Positions 11,411 through 17,462 of a stretch of 64,000 bases of DNA are shown piece after piece (positions within the stretch are counted from its first letter, which is position 1; each line of letters starts with the position of its first letter). The DNA is from an uncultured Opitutia bacterium. GTDB lineage: Bacteria > Verrucomicrobiota > Verrucomicrobiia > Opitutales > Opitutaceae. The stretch is taken from the NCBI GenBank assembly GCA_903825285.1, contig CAIJZY010000055.1, positions 1 through 64,000 of the forward strand. The letters run 5' to 3'. Both the position numbers and the translations under genes were made by a program. The notes beneath the pieces were generated by a model. That model saw nothing but the letters and a program-made list of their open reading frames with translations, did no database searches and was not told the DNA's origin.

Positions 11411-11557
11411 GGCCGCGGCCGGGGGTTTGGGCCGAACGACCCATAGGCAGCCCGGGCCGTTTCGCGTAGCATGTTTCTGCCCTGTTACCTACGGCGGCTT
11501 GCCGTGCGGTGCGGGATTCTTTGCCTTCTATCCGGTCTCCCACACTGTTTCTCCCCC

Positions 11558-13675
11558 ATGATGAACCTGCGCCCCCACCTCCTGAAGTGCGTGCTGGCCC
11601 TCGCCGCCCTGGTCCTCGCGGCCGTGCCGTCCGCCCGCGCCGAAACCCACGTCCAGGTGTCGCTCGTCTCCGCCCAGGCCTCGATCCAGCCCGGCCAAAA
11701 GTTCACCGTCGCGCTCCGCCTGGTGCATGACGAGCACTGGCACACCTACTGGATCAACCCCGGCACCGGCCTCGTCACGTCGCTCAACTGGACCCTCCCC
11801 GCGGGCTTCACCGCGGGCGACATCCAGTGGCCCGCACCACACGTGCTCAAGGACCACACCGGCACCGTCGTCGGCAACGGTTACGAGGGGGATGTCCTGC
11901 TGCCTGTCACCCTCACCACCCCCGCCAACCTCAAGCCGGGCTCCTCGGTGACACTCGCCGCGGGCGCCGAGTGGCTGATGTGCGATGAGGTCTGCATGCC
12001 CGGCGACGCCCAGGTCAGCCTCACCCTGCCGGTCACTGCCGAGGCCCCCGCGCCCGACGCCACGTGGGGCGCCAAGGTCACGGCCGCCGTCGCCGCCCTC
12101 CCCCGCGCCGACGCCGCGTGGAGCGTTTCCGCCACCCGCGCCGCCAAGTCCGTCACGCTCACCGTCAAACCGGTTTCAGGCCAGCCGGCCGCGACTCCCT
12201 CGCCCGCCGACCTCCATTTCTTCGCGGACGACAACTACGTCGCCTACGAGCAGCCGCAGGACGTGAAGGCCGACGGCAAGGGCGGCTTCGTGCTGACGCT
12301 GCCCATCTCGCCCGACGGCCCCGCCAATGCCAAGCGGCTGGTCGGCGTGCTGACCGCCGAGCATGGCTGGCTGCCCGACGGCTCGCTGCGCGGGCTGCGG
12401 GTGGACGTGGATTTCAACGGCGCGGCCGCCGCCGCCTCCCCCGCCGCGGCCACGGGCACACCGCCGCCCGCGGCGGGCAGCCTGATCGGCACGCTCGCGC
12501 TGGCGCTCATCGGCGGGCTGATCCTCAACCTCATGCCCTGCGTGTTCCCGGTGCTCGGCATCAAGATCCTCGGCTTCGTGAACCAGTCCGGCAACGAGCG
12601 CGGCAAGGTCGTCGCGCACGGCCTCGTGTTCGCGCTCGGCGTGCTGCTCTCGTTCTGGACGCTGGCCGGCGTGCTGGCGCTGCTGCGCTCGGGCGGCGCC
12701 CAGCTGGGCTGGGGCTTCCAGCTCCAGTCGCCCGGGTTCGTGTTCATGCTCGCGGCACTGATGCTCGTCTTCGCGCTCAACATGAGCGGCCTGTTCGAGT
12801 TCGGCCTCGCGGCGACCGGCGTGGGCTCGGGCCTGCAATCGAAGTCCGGCTACGTGGGCTCGTTCTTCACCGGCGTGCTCGCGACGGTCGTCGCCACGCC
12901 CTGCTCCGCGCCGTTCCTCGCGCCTGCGCTCGGCGCCGCGCTCGCGCTGCCCGTCGCGGAGTCGTTCCTGATCTTCACCGCCATCGCCGTCGGACTCGCG
13001 CTGCCGTACCTGCTGCTCTCGATCTTCCCGCAGGCCGTGAAGGTGCTGCCGCGCCCCGGCGCGTGGATGGAGACCTTCAAGCAGTTCATGGCCTTCCCGC
13101 TCTATGCGACGGTTGGCTACCTGATCTGGGTGCTCGCCGGCCAGGCGTCGGAGTCCGGCCTGCTCATGGCGCTGTTCGGCCTCGTGCTCGTCGCGATGGG
13201 CGTGTGGTTCTACGGCCGCTGGAACGCCCCCGGCGCCTCGGCCGGACGCGCGCGCTTCGGGCTCATCGCCGGCGTCGCCGTGCTCGCGCTCGGCGGCTGG
13301 ACCGGCTGGCCGCAGGCACCCGCGGCCAACGAGGTCACGTGGGAAAAATGGAGCCCCGAGACCGTCGCCAAGCTCCGCGCCGAGGGCCGCATCGTGTACG
13401 TGGACTTCACCGCCCGCTGGTGCGCGACCTGCCAGGCGAACAAGAAGCTGGTGTTCCACTCGCAGGAGGTCCTCGAGTATTTCCGGACCAAGAAGATCGC
13501 GACCCTGCGCGGCGACTGGACCAACAAGGACCCGCAGATCACCGCCGAGCTCGCCGCGTACCACCGCAGCGCTGTCCCCTTCAATTTGATCTGGATGCCC
13601 GGCAAGGCCGACCCGGTGCTACTGCCGGAACTGCTCACACCTGACACCGTGCTCACCGCGCTGAAGGCGCCGTGA
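11558..13675 (+). CDS. dsbD: DsbD-family thiol:disulfide interchange protein
   Basis: 705 residues from the ATG at 11558, which gives a clean signal peptide ending PSARA. Residues 30-290 form a DsbD/ScsB-type periplasmic domain (WHTYWINPGTGL, Cys142 and Cys146 in LMCDEVCMPGD). Residues ~308-600 are the eight-helix transmembrane domain with Cys328 (LMPCVFPVLG) and a second Cys in ATPCSAPFLAPALG. The C-terminal thioredoxin domain has Trp621-Cys622-x-x-Cys625 and a cis-Pro loop (AVPFNL). It passes electrons from cytoplasmic thioredoxin to periplasmic targets, for example cytochrome c maturation or SCO proteins, both relevant to the upstream nirK island. An upstream in-frame ATG at 11471 would spoil the signal peptide. 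Confidence 0.93.
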   Translation: MMNLRPHLLKCVLALAALVLAAVPSARAETHVQVSLVSAQASIQPGQKFTVALRLVHDEHWHTYWINPGTGLVTSLNWTLPAGFTAGDIQWPAPHVLKDHTGTVVGNGYEGDVLLPVTLTTPANLKPGSSVTLAAGAEWLMCDEVCMPGDAQVSLTLPVTAEAPAPDATWGAKVTAAVAALPRADAAWSVSATRAAKSVTLTVKPVSGQPAATPSPADLHFFADDNYVAYEQPQDVKADGKGGFVLTLPISPDGPANAKRLVGVLTAEHGWLPDGSLRGLRVDVDFNGAAAAASPAAATGTPPPAAGSLIGTLALALIGGLILNLMPCVFPVLGIKILGFVNQSGNERGKVVAHGLVFALGVLLSFWTLAGVLALLRSGGAQLGWGFQLQSPGFVFMLAALMLVFALNMSGLFEFGLAATGVGSGLQSKSGYVGSFFTGVLATVVATPCSAPFLAPALGAALALPVAESFLIFTAIAVGLALPYLLLSIFPQAVKVLPRPGAWMETFKQFMAFPLYATVGYLIWVLAGQASESGLLMALFGLVLVAMGVWFYGRWNAPGASAGRARFGLIAGVAVLALGGWTGWPQAPAANEVTWEKWSPETVAKLRAEGRIVYVDFTARWCATCQANKKLVFHSQEVLEYFRTKKIATLRGDWTNKDPQITAELAAYHRSAVPFNLIWMPGKADPVLLPELLTPDTVLTALKAP

Positions 13676-13744: not shown

Positions 13745-15583
13745 CTATTGGCCCGAACCCTTCCAAGCGTTGTAAAGCGCCCTCTGCTCCGGAGTCAGAC
13801 TCGCCAAGACCATATCCTGCGACTCAAGCGCCTTCTTGGCGTCCGCCATCTGTTGCTGAACCTGCTCGGGGGAATCGACAAAGTGAATGGCCCGGGCGGG
13901 AGTAAAACCGGCCCGCTGCTCCGGCGTCAGGCTGGCCATGAACCGATCCCTCCGCTCGCGATTGATCGCCTGGAGTTGCTCTGCAAACAGGAAGCCCATG
14001 CTGACCGTGACACCACCATCCTCTGGGGCCCGAAAAATCTGCACAACTTCGGCGCCCTGCAGGTAGCTCATCAGGATCGCGATCTTCCCTTCGCGGTTGA
14101 TCTTCGGCCAAGCCAGCGCGAGTTCGTGCGGAACGGCTTCCCCCCGCATGCTTTCGCGCCGGCGAGCCTGTGCCTGAGGGGTGAGAAACCGGTCCGCCAA
14201 GAGTTGGGGAAACTTCACTGTCTCAGGATTCTTCAGGTTCAGGACGCGGGCGTTGCCGGACCGGGTGAGCAGCGTGACCTGCCGGGTCGCCACGTCGATT
14301 TCCTGGACACCCAACCCCATGATGCCGGACTTCCGGCTCAGGAGCACCGGTTCTCCCTCCACATCCACGATCGCGAGCGGCACGCCGCCCACTTCGTCAA
14401 CCGCGCGCAATTCGAGGTTGCCGTGCTCCTCCCACTCGAGGATGCGCGCCAGCCGGTCCTTCACGCGGGCACGCTGTTCCGCAGTGAGTTCGGGAAGACG
14501 ATGCGGCACCGCCGGGCCGGCCGGCTCGGCGGGTTTTTCCTGAGTGAATCCGATCAAGGCAAAGCCGCTTACCAACGCGATGCTGATAACGGCGCGGGTG
14601 ACGCTCACGGGACGAAAGTTGGATATCATGGCGAATCTCCTGAGCAGTTGGCGTTTGTTTTCGACGATCCCGACCGCAGCGGGCAGGGCCACCGTCGTCT
14701 GTTGGGCACTTAAAACCTTGAGCAGCACATCCCCGTATTCACTTGGTTCAGCACCCACGGCATGCCGCAGGACGAAGTCATCGCAGGCCAGTTCGGTGTC
14801 ATTCACGCCGAGGCGGATGGCCAGCCAGGCCAGCGGATTGAACCACTGGACCGCCGCGGCGAGGTGAAGGAGGCTCAGGACCCACAAGTCCCTCCGGTGG
14901 TAGTGTCCGAGCTCGTGCAACATGACCCAGCGCAATTCCGCCTCGGAGAGTTCGCCGGCCAAGTGACTGGGAAAAAGCAACCGGGCCCGCAACACGCCGC
15001 ACAGCGCGGGTGACGACACCAGATCCGTCATCGCGATTCGGGGCAGGCGCTGGAATCCCAGCTCCTCGCCGGCCGCGCGAAACGCCCGCTCCACGCTCGC
15101 ATCGAGGGCCGTCGTCCCATGCCGCAATTTCCGGTTCAACCGGACAATCGACAGCCCGCGCATGGCCAGCAGGCCGCCCGCGATTCCCAGCCAGGCGGCG
15201 GTGAGCCACTGACTGGACCGCATCATGGACCAGGCCGCGGGCCGTGGTGCGCTCGCGGTGGCGGGCACACGATTGAAATCCGAGAGTCGGACGGGGACCT
15301 GGCTGGCGACGGGGACTGCCGGCAAGAATCCTGCCTCCACTGCCGACTGGGGCGCCGGCTGGCTGGCAGTCAGCCCGGGAGCAAAACTGAAAGGACTCCA
15401 GCGGACGGGAATGGTCAGTGGCACGAGCCAAACCAGGGCGATCACAACCCAGGCTGCCGCCAGCACTCGCGCGGGAACCTGGCGGCGGCCCGCGAACCTG
15501 ACGACCAGGAGCAGGCCCATCAGCACGGCGCCTCGGCAGGATGCCGCGACGAACAACGACAACAGGCCTTCCCCGGTGATCAC
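13745..15583 (-). CDS. BlaR1/MecR1-like M56 membrane metallopeptidase without a penicillin-binding domain
   Basis: 612 residues. Membrane helices near residues 8-28, 38-60, 125-143 and one at ~325-345 flank a cytoplasmic zinc-peptidase domain with His223-Glu224-x-x-His227 (LHELGHYHRRD) and the downstream NDTELACDDF ligand. This is the M56 architecture of BlaR1, which cleaves the partner repressor. The C-terminal ~270 residues, expected outside the membrane, lack transpeptidase SxxK/KTG motifs; they contain repeated LTxEQRA stretches (ELTAEQRARVKDRL, SLTPEQRAGF, SLTPEQRALYNAW) resembling Spy/CpxP-type helices. The signal sensed is therefore probably not a beta-lactam. The ATG overlaps the blaI stop by 4 nt, indicating translational coupling. 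Confidence 0.88.
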   Translation of the reverse strand: MITGEGLLSLFVAASCRGAVLMGLLLVVRFAGRRQVPARVLAAAWVVIALVWLVPLTIPVRWSPFSFAPGLTASQPAPQSAVEAGFLPAVPVASQVPVRLSDFNRVPATASAPRPAAWSMMRSSQWLTAAWLGIAGGLLAMRGLSIVRLNRKLRHGTTALDASVERAFRAAGEELGFQRLPRIAMTDLVSSPALCGVLRARLLFPSHLAGELSEAELRWVMLHELGHYHRRDLWVLSLLHLAAAVQWFNPLAWLAIRLGVNDTELACDDFVLRHAVGAEPSEYGDVLLKVLSAQQTTVALPAAVGIVENKRQLLRRFAMISNFRPVSVTRAVISIALVSGFALIGFTQEKPAEPAGPAVPHRLPELTAEQRARVKDRLARILEWEEHGNLELRAVDEVGGVPLAIVDVEGEPVLLSRKSGIMGLGVQEIDVATRQVTLLTRSGNARVLNLKNPETVKFPQLLADRFLTPQAQARRRESMRGEAVPHELALAWPKINREGKIAILMSYLQGAEVVQIFRAPEDGGVTVSMGFLFAEQLQAINRERRDRFMASLTPEQRAGFTPARAIHFVDSPEQVQQQMADAKKALESQDMVLASLTPEQRALYNAWKGSGQ

Positions 15584-15954
15584 TTGCGGCCTTTCTTCTT
15601 CCGCAGCAGATCCTGCAGCTCCTGGATCTCCTCTTTGCTGAGCGTGGCCTGTTCGCAGAAATGCACGAGCAGCGGCCCGGCGGCACCCTGAAACACCCGC
15701 TGCATAAAATGCCGGCTTTCCTGCGCCACGCCCTGTTCCCGGCGCAGGAGCGGCGAGTAAACGTTAATGTTGCCGTCCTTTGTTACCTTGAGGACGCCCT
15801 TCTCCACCAGGCGTGCGAGAAAAGTGTTCACCGTCTTCTGCGCCCATGCGTGTCCGGCGGGCAGTGCCGCGAAGACCTCGGCCGCCGTCACTGGATGACG
15901 GGCCCACACGGCATTCATCACTTCCCACTCGGCGCTCGAAATTTTCGGCTTCAT
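15580..15954 (-). CDS. BlaI/MecI/CopY-family repressor
   Basis: 124 residues. The N-terminal winged helix reads KISSAEWEVMNAVWARHPVTAAEVFAAL, then KTVNTFLARLVEKGVLKVTKDGNINVYSPLL, the standard BlaI recognition and wing region. The C-terminal dimer helix is EQATLSKEEIQELQDLLRKKK. The family represses its own operon and is inactivated by cleavage by a BlaR1-type peptidase, here the next gene. A TACAAATGTA dyad four bases upstream of the ATG is the expected operator. The gene pair is self-contained; no beta-lactamase gene is adjacent. Confidence 0.93.
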   Translation of the reverse strand: MKPKISSAEWEVMNAVWARHPVTAAEVFAALPAGHAWAQKTVNTFLARLVEKGVLKVTKDGNINVYSPLLRREQGVAQESRHFMQRVFQGAAGPLLVHFCEQATLSKEEIQELQDLLRKKKGRK

Positions 15955-15958
15955 GCGT

Positions 15959-15995
15959 GTTCCTACAAATGTAGGTGTCCTACGTTTGTAGGAAC
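15959..15995. promoter_or_regulatory. BlaI-type operator, paired dyads
   Basis: TACAAATGTA (15964-15973) is a perfect TACA-N2-TGTA dyad, and TACGTTTGTA (15981-15990) is a near copy. Together they form a larger inverted repeat of 17-base arms (15959-15975, 15979-15995) with one mismatch. The element starts 4 bp from the blaI ATG, so bound repressor would block its own transcription. The divergent gene at 16089 begins 94 bp away and could share it. Confidence 0.85.
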
Positions 15996-16088
15996 GTCAA
16001 GCGCCGAAACCCGCGACCGGACTGGGCTCGCCCGCCATTTTGGTTCGTGTCGCGGGCTCAACCCGCATGGGATGGCGGGTCATCGGAC

Positions 16089-17462
16089 ATGATGACGAAC
16101 ACCCTCTATGCCAGCCAGGTCGGGGCCCGGCTGGACAGCAACGTGGCAACGGGCGGCGGGACGAATGACACCGCCGCCCTGCAGCAGGTCCTGGACCGGG
16201 CCGAGAGGGACGGCGGCGTCCGGCTCATCATGGACGGCGCGGCGCTGGTCACCTCGCTCCGCGTCCACTCCCACACCACCATCGAGTGCCTGAACCCCGC
16301 CTGCGGTTTTTATCAGGCCGACCACTCCGACTGCGCGCTGCTGATCAACGCCCACCCGTCAGCCGGGGAGATCATCGACCGCAACATCACGCTGCTCGGC
16401 GGCACCTATAACCAGAACTGCCGGCACCAGGTCCACCACGTGCCGCCCGACGTGCACTACTCCAAGGCCGAGCGCCTGGTCGTCGCCCTCGCCTTCTTCG
16501 GGGTCGAGAACCTGCTCGTGCGCGACGTGACCGTGCGCGACCAGCGGACCTTCGCCTTCCTCATCACCAACTGGCTCAAGGTGACGATGGAGAACATCCG
16601 GCTGGAGTTGCCGAATTTCATCCACAGCGGCAACCAGGACGGCATCCACCTGCAGGGACCCGGCCGGTTCCTCGTGCTGCGCAACATCCAGGGCCGCACC
16701 GGCGACGACTTCATCGCGTTGAACGGCGACGAGGAGACGAACGGCGAGCAGAGCTGGGCCCATCCCTGCGCCACGGTCGGGCCGATCACCGACGTGCTGA
16801 TCGACACGGTGATGGTGGACGACGCCGCGCAGGTCGTCCGCATCCTCTCGCGCGAGAGCCTGCACGACCGCATCACCATCCGCAACGTGAGCGGCCACTA
16901 CCGCAGCTTCGGCTTCTACCTCAGCGCCTGGGACTACAAGCGGAAGGGCCTGCAGGGAAATTTCGGCTCGCTGGTGTTTGAAAACATCGACCTGCGGCAG
17001 ACCAAGGCCGACTACACCTATACCGAGCCTTTCCTCTTCCGGATCTCCGGCCGCCACCGCAGCCTGACACTGCGAAACATCTCGTACCACGATCCGGCCG
17101 ACGACCGCTACCTGGTCCACCTCGAAGGCCGCACCGATATCCCGGAGTTGGGCGACACCCCCGCGGAGGTCGAGTCGCTGGTGATCGACGGCCTGCATGT
17201 CCAGGACGCGGGCCCGACGCCCCAGACCCGTCCCTACATCCGGGCCAGCGGACGTGTCCGGCACCTCGTCGTGAAAAACAGCGAGCTGCTCTGTGCGCCC
17301 GGCAAGCGGACCGTGTTCCTCGCGACCGAAGGGGAGCTGGCCGCCATTGATCGTCTGACCCTCTGCAACCTCTGCACGGAAAATCTCGCCGCGCTGGTGT
17401 CCGACCCGGGCAAAAAGATCCGCCACGTCGAGACCAGCAACGTGCTGCCGCGGCCGGCCTAA
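16089..17462 (+). CDS. GH28-like right-handed beta-helix protein, no signal peptide
   Basis: 457 residues from tandem ATGs at 16089/16092. The opening GARLDSNVATGGGTNDTAALQQVLDRA is the pectin-lyase-fold leader of GH28-type enzymes. Repeating beta-helix coils follow (ENLLVRDVTVRDQRTFAFLI, LVLRNIQGRT, LVIDGLHVQD). NQDGIHL (182-187) and GDDFIAL (205-211) correspond to the NTD and DD catalytic motifs of polygalacturonases. A catalytic role on uronic-acid-containing glycans is likely, but the specificity cannot be read. No signal peptide is visible, suggesting a cytoplasmic enzyme acting on imported oligosaccharides. An upstream in-frame start at 15975 would run through the BlaI operator. Confidence 0.75.
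   Translation: MMTNTLYASQVGARLDSNVATGGGTNDTAALQQVLDRAERDGGVRLIMDGAALVTSLRVHSHTTIECLNPACGFYQADHSDCALLINAHPSAGEIIDRNITLLGGTYNQNCRHQVHHVPPDVHYSKAERLVVALAFFGVENLLVRDVTVRDQRTFAFLITNWLKVTMENIRLELPNFIHSGNQDGIHLQGPGRFLVLRNIQGRTGDDFIALNGDEETNGEQSWAHPCATVGPITDVLIDTVMVDDAAQVVRILSRESLHDRITIRNVSGHYRSFGFYLSAWDYKRKGLQGNFGSLVFENIDLRQTKADYTYTEPFLFRISGRHRSLTLRNISYHDPADDRYLVHLEGRTDIPELGDTPAEVESLVIDGLHVQDAGPTPQTRPYIRASGRVRHLVVKNSELLCAPGKRTVFLATEGELAAIDRLTLCNLCTENLAALVSDPGKKIRHVETSNVLPRPA

Follow-up and report, generated by a model that had tools for sequence, protein, structure and literature searches.

A BlaI/M56 gene pair with a conserved ectodomain of a non-penicillin-binding family in an uncultured Opitutia bacterium

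The closest described relatives of the system discussed here are BlaR1/BlaI and MecR1/MecI of Staphylococcus. They combine an M56 protease, with its zinc site and membrane layout, a BlaI-type repressor, a TACA-N2-TGTA operator and coupled genes, and the receptor carries a penicillin-binding sensor domain with an SxxK motif. For S. aureus BlaR1, an excerpt of PMC9834060 names HExxH, ExxxD, Asp210, Tyr261, and Arg294 as important. According to the same excerpt, BlaR1 of Mycobacterium tuberculosis lacks an equivalent sensor domain, and another protein has been suggested as the sensor. BlaI/M56 pairs are easily taken for antibiotic-resistance switches. An automatic "BlaR1" label would mislead for the pair described below, as its ectodomain belongs to another family and no resistance target is in sight.

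The pair lies in the window, a stretch of 64,000 nucleotides from the genome of an uncultured Opitutia bacterium, and consists of the following parts:

15580-15954, minus strand: blaI-type repressor gene, 124 aa (Pfam Penicillinase_R, E 3.9e-35)
13745-15583, minus strand: M56 membrane metalloprotease gene, GTG start, 612 aa, ectodomain not of the PBP type (Pfam M56, E 1.5e-38)
14903-14917, minus strand: HELGH zinc site, residues 223-227 (H223, E224, and H227 invariant in eight carriers)
14780-14794, minus strand: second zinc motif ExxxD, E264-D268 (both invariant; matches E242XXXD of S. aureus BlaR1 in the excerpt of PMC9834060)
14537-14611, minus strand: last transmembrane segment, residues 325-349, between protease and ectodomain (hydropathy)

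The repressor and the HELGH-bearing peptidase are both intact, as an earlier note on this DNA had stated. The blaI stop and the start of the M56 gene overlap by four bases, GTGA. Searches of the 3.7-Mb assembly, which is 96% complete, found a single BlaI gene and a single M56 gene. The identity of BlaI to its seven relatives in the other carriers is 67-76%, while the M56 proteins share 36-46% among carriers. One of these blaI relatives (L150:4403, genome G021) has ATT in place of the ATG of the seven others; its start codon is either of a rare type or damaged. On the other side, the gene of a DsbD-type thiol:disulfide interchange protein (window 11471-13672) converges on the switch.

Hydropathy places the hydrophobic regions of the M56 protein at residues 6-32, 35-65, 129-147, and 325-349, which fits the BlaR1 layout. 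With the orientation taken over from BlaR1, residues from about 350 onward would lie outside the inner membrane. The important residues of S. aureus BlaR1 were assigned to the window protein by numbering match, with a constant offset of +22. They correspond to H223/E224/H227, E264/D268, D232, Y283, and R316, all of which are invariant in the eight carriers. Every carrier has repressor, M56 gene, and operator, the wide-sense definition of a BlaI-M56 switch. Measured against BlaR1/MecR1 proper, HExxH, ExxxD, the BlaI/MecI-type partner, and the operator are present, whereas the SxxK penicillin-binding domain is absent. Since this defining feature is lacking, the protein should not be called BlaR1, despite its BlaR1/BlaI-like working parts.

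The absence of transpeptidase motifs from the C-terminal region, also reported in the earlier note, was confirmed. The motif S..K occurs nowhere in the 612 residues, while KSG (418), RSG (441), and SGN (442) are present. At E<=1, a Pfam search of the window protein matched neither a PBP nor a beta-lactamase family, and no PBP family was found among the close ectodomains. The NCBIfam model blaR1_generic scores 109.6 bits, against a cut-off of 400. The claim that the switch probably does not sense beta-lactams is thus well supported as far as sensing by acylation is concerned, because SxxK and a PBP profile match are both absent and an ectodomain of another kind is conserved instead.

This ectodomain (residues ~350-612) is a conserved module, in which a six-stranded beta part is followed by helices with two LTxxQ motifs:

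14228-14434, minus strand: beta part, residues 384-452, six strands (AlphaFold2; conserved GGVPVA and ID segments)
13979-14131, minus strand: conserved AW..INREGK..IL..YL segment, within residues 485-535 (carrier alignment)
14474-14488, minus strand: first LTAEQ segment, residues 366-370, not conserved apart from Glu369 (carrier alignment)
13916-13930, minus strand: conserved LTPEQ motif, residues 552-556 (carrier alignment)
13784-13798, minus strand: conserved LTPEQ motif, residues 596-600 (carrier alignment)

Of 252 genomes of the family, profile searches detected the module in 15, and in eight of these it is joined to an M56 protease encoded next to blaI. None of the 11 other genomes listed for the same genus gave the fusion; two of them carry distant relatives of the free-standing type. 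Above the family level, where genome samples were drawn and not exhaustive, matches to the ectodomain occurred in 3 of 286 genomes of the class, and a search of the phylum with profile A3 gave matches in 7 of 387 genomes, three of them strong. Two weak phylum matches, L119 (a primase-like ORF) and L121 (an ORF next to an ABC ATPase), were dropped after inspection by eye; L120 and L122 are two further weak ones. L151 is a partial, weak match to the module, and G743 (L152) gave a weak match across stop codons in one profile search and none in a second. Forty-two plasmid records match the M56 protein, none over 80% of the query, and the five listed reach residue 404 at most.

Free-standing homologues of the ectodomain also exist. 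In L138 and in L139 one is encoded directly downstream of the M56 gene, and L143 is an orphan. They are probably exported, judging by hydrophobic N-termini read by eye. Loci L144-L148 hold more distant relatives; in hhalign, this set and the 11 close ectodomains align over 212 columns (probability 99.1%). One distant relative (L146:5907-6761, genome G702 of the same genus) lies inside a type II secretion gene cluster with Pfam matches to T2SSG and N_methyl, and to T2SSK just below its cut-off. Similar-looking small proteins with a hydrophobic N-terminus and no Pfam family follow the distant relative at L145:1185-1664 and L146:5412-5882.

Among the papers listed in literature searches, none was recognised as describing the ectodomain. 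Many M56 proteins carry other ectodomains, so that M56 with a varied ectodomain is already known and the novelty lies in the ectodomain family. Among 77 M56 proteins (the loci with a complete ORF, of 80), the ectodomain families include TonB plug (15), TonB_C (12), Poly_export (5), and Metal_resist (2); the 25 families listed, of 52, include no transpeptidase. The two proteins with Metal_resist were not among the 10 of 77 that were inspected. Two L[TS]..Q motifs follow the protease part in 3 of the 77, in apparent repeat tails. The listed matches of other M56 proteins to the window protein extend no further than residue 402 and so leave out most of the ectodomain. A Planctomycetaceae M56 protein (L033:4962-7220) has a Secretin match (E 5.3e-9), i.e., a secretion-type domain on an M56 protease.

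In silico modelling of the whole ectodomain with AlphaFold2 from a single sequence was unreliable (mean pLDDT 40.5) and was not used. The beta part alone (residues 384-470) was predicted as six strands and a helix; mean pLDDT ranged from 72.1 to 46.4 over five models, and the best had a pTM of 0.60. Its best Foldseek match was GspC (3oss_C; E 0.019, probability 0.97, TM 0.35/0.44), which is not significant, and PilP appeared at rank 15. An origin of the beta part from the GspC HR domain or PilP is a possibility suggested by this match and by the location of L146 among type II secretion genes. The structural match is non-significant, however, and profile comparison with E. coli GspC gave 0.6% and 4.5%. 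With a second structure aligner, neither GspC nor PilP was among the best 50 matches listed for the beta part, and the best Z of 5.0 (IDOL F3ab, DddB) is within the range that common folds give. A viral fold library gave no match at E<=0.001. Against PDB sequences, profile A3 had no match at E<=10, and profiles A4 and A5 had only unrelated-looking ones (best E 0.015 and 0.74, respectively). E values as low as 1.6e-10 were obtained with the beta-part profile A9 for WRAP-T and WD-40 repeat proteins; this is read as a strand pattern recurring in repeats, because the same 19 columns matched each time and no single stretch passed.

The earlier note had described three LTxEQRA segments resembling Spy/CpxP-type envelope-stress proteins. 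All three are present (at 366, 552, and 596), and they exceed chance: L[TS]..Q is expected 0.12 times and LT.EQ[RK] 0.004 times per 263 residues, against three in the ectodomain, and other genes, 64,039 aa from a home-made ORF call, contain LT.EQ[RK] a single time. Conservation holds for the second and third segments, which keep L and Q in all eight carriers at a spacing of 44-46 residues, but not for the first. The likeness to Spy/CpxP stands at the level of the motif and does not extend beyond it. Pfam LTXXQ (PF07813, cut-off 24.3) reaches 23.3 bits when the whole protein is searched and 27.2 with the ectodomain by itself; in the window protein the best stretch covers profile positions 65-98 of 100. 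Matches to PF07813 at E<=1 were found in 11 of 11 close ectodomains, most of them short. Among the six with scores listed, the window protein (27.2), L149 (26.4), and L143 (24.8) are above the cut-off, while L140 (21.3), L150 (18.0), and the downstream copy of L138 (14.4) are below it. When the module was compared with Spy, CpxP, and two LTXXQ proteins of the window genome, hhalign aligned 19 columns (probability 56%, E 1.1e-4). On these profile data, LTxxQ is a shared motif that does not imply common descent with Spy/CpxP.

A rival explanation is that the ectodomain is a Spy/CpxP-type sensor of envelope stress or metal fused to M56, whose LTxxQ tail would bind unfolded protein or metal and trigger the protease. 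The two conserved motifs and the PF07813 matches speak for this, as does L140, whose match covers most of the profile (positions 24-98) although its score is below the cut-off. Nevertheless, this explanation appears rather unlikely, given that the profile alignment is confined to 19 columns, the motifs sit within a larger beta-plus-helical module, and conserved His, Cys or Met residues are lacking. The metal-sensing branch of LTXXQ proteins has conserved metal-ligand residues. In the columns occupied in the window protein, no ectodomain position has His, Cys or Met in at least four of the eight carriers, and metal sensing, one of the two signals suggested in the earlier note, is thus not supported. 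Sensing of envelope damage, the other, is possible.

Upstream of blaI, the window has the following elements:

15963-15974, no strand assigned: operator dyad nearer blaI, CTACAAATGTAG, the sole perfect CTACANNTGTAG found in the genome
15980-15991, no strand assigned: second dyad, CTACGTTTGTAG, with one mismatch (tandem dyads upstream of blaI in 8/8 carriers)
15995-16000, minus strand: TTGACG, probable -35 box (TTGAC at the matching place in seven of eight carriers; TTGCC in L139)

The textbook TACA-N2-TGTA operator of the earlier note is thereby borne out; the second dyad is an addition to it. The centres of the two dyads are 17 bp apart in the window, compared with 24-26 bp in the seven other carriers, and TTGAC adjoins the distal dyad in seven of eight. 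A consensus promoter scan reported no site at TTGACG/blaI and none for the divergent gene at 15975-17459. Terminator-like sites were about as frequent as expected (2 found, 2.5 expected).

The divergent gene begins beside the operator; it is pectin-lyase-like by eye and has no Pfam family. The dyads lie between blaI and its likely start, which has raised the idea that the switch also controls it. This is improbable: the seven other carriers retain the operator in other surroundings, and the gene has neither a Pfam family nor a promoter in the scan, the latter being equally true of blaI.

A search for other BlaI operators in the genome, proposed in the earlier note, gave no perfect dyad elsewhere and six one-mismatch sites outside the promoter. 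The same scan was applied to all eight carriers (G000, which is the window genome, G021, G037, G616, G761, G764, G767, and G768). Perfect dyads outside the own promoter number zero in seven of them and one in G767. Nine genomes without the fusion (G015, G059, G702, G691, G693, G763, G604, G166, and G203) have none in eight cases and one in G693. The two lone perfect dyads away from switch promoters are at G767:C108:88070 and G693:C132:9499. In the genomes other than G000, G021, G037, G015, and G059, the reversed pattern served as control and matched exactly 1-9 times per genome, which makes the dyad the rarer of the two. One-mismatch sites outside the promoter number six in the window genome, seven in G021, and six in G037, and genomes of the same genus without the switch have two (G015) and 11 (G059). 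BlaI may use such weaker sites. Judged by the dyads, the operon itself appears to be the only convincing BlaI target, as perfect dyads are essentially restricted to its own promoter. A further target could be missing from the assembly, which is 96% complete.

This regulon also bears on the question of beta-lactams. The pair could be a true beta-lactam switch whose penicillin sensor is another protein, as suggested for M. tuberculosis BlaR1 in the excerpt of PMC9834060. That BlaR1 likewise has an M56 protease without a PBP sensor; in contrast to it, the window protein has a large conserved ectodomain, so that the sensor domain is replaced and not missing. With no other perfect dyad in the assembly, no beta-lactamase gene stands under one; the single perfect dyad detected belongs to the promoter of the switch itself (in the 96% complete assembly, where weaker sites exist). 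A separate penicillin sensor is very improbable on these grounds. Least probable of all is a decaying relic without present function, which would suit the patchy occurrence (8 of 252 genomes), the lack of the fusion in the 11 other genomes listed for the genus, and the absence of a clear regulon. Against it, the reading frames are undamaged, and catalytic residues, gene coupling, and operators have persisted among carriers at an M56 identity of 36-46%.

In the preferred reading, the pair is probably a BlaI/M56 switch of a non-penicillin kind that is complete in itself. It differs from the Staphylococcus systems in its ectodomain and, in the window genome, in having perfect dyads only at its own promoter. 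It probably works as a self-amplifying loop, which is the likeliest mode because every perfect dyad is at the switch's own promoter in seven of eight carriers. The switch would be started beyond the inner membrane, most likely when the ectodomain binds or releases a protein or polymer, and the last transmembrane helix would relay the signal. Self-cleavage by the M56 site and cleavage of BlaI would follow, and BlaI would come off the tandem dyads over the promoter and ribosome site. Expression of blaI-M56 would climb until the signal stops, and the output would hence be more receptor, in two relatives probably together with the free ectodomain copy encoded directly downstream.

A more specific version of this loop is put forward tentatively. 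Here the repressor would govern only its own receptor, and the ectodomain, also free and exported, would be the product that matters. It might act in the periplasm as an adaptor or chaperone that is protease-gated and self-amplifying, with the free copy as a decoy or reporter, and may have arisen from a component of a secretion system. With one perfect operator and one M56 gene found, the genome offers a small test bed for non-penicillin triggering of M56 proteases.

Neighbouring genes were called by a simple script. In five of the eight carriers (L138, L139, L142, L149, and L150), the pair is beside an ABC exporter permease gene, and in all of these except L142 an exporter ATPase gene was also called. 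For L149, the ATPase and permease assignments were confirmed by Pfam, as was a LytTR regulator for L138; the other genes of the exporter locus were read by eye. No exporter locus was present within the stretches fetched for L140 and L141. The window genome has the exporter at L159, together with a coiled-coil-like gene, an ABM-family gene, and a pyrimidine phosphorylase gene, and contains neither blaI nor M56 there; the pair is therefore at another place in this genome. Its position away from the exporter locus reflects either relocation or loss and regain. The ABM-family gene (L159:5324-5656, on G000:C39) is located between the coiled-coil-like and the pyrimidine phosphorylase genes.
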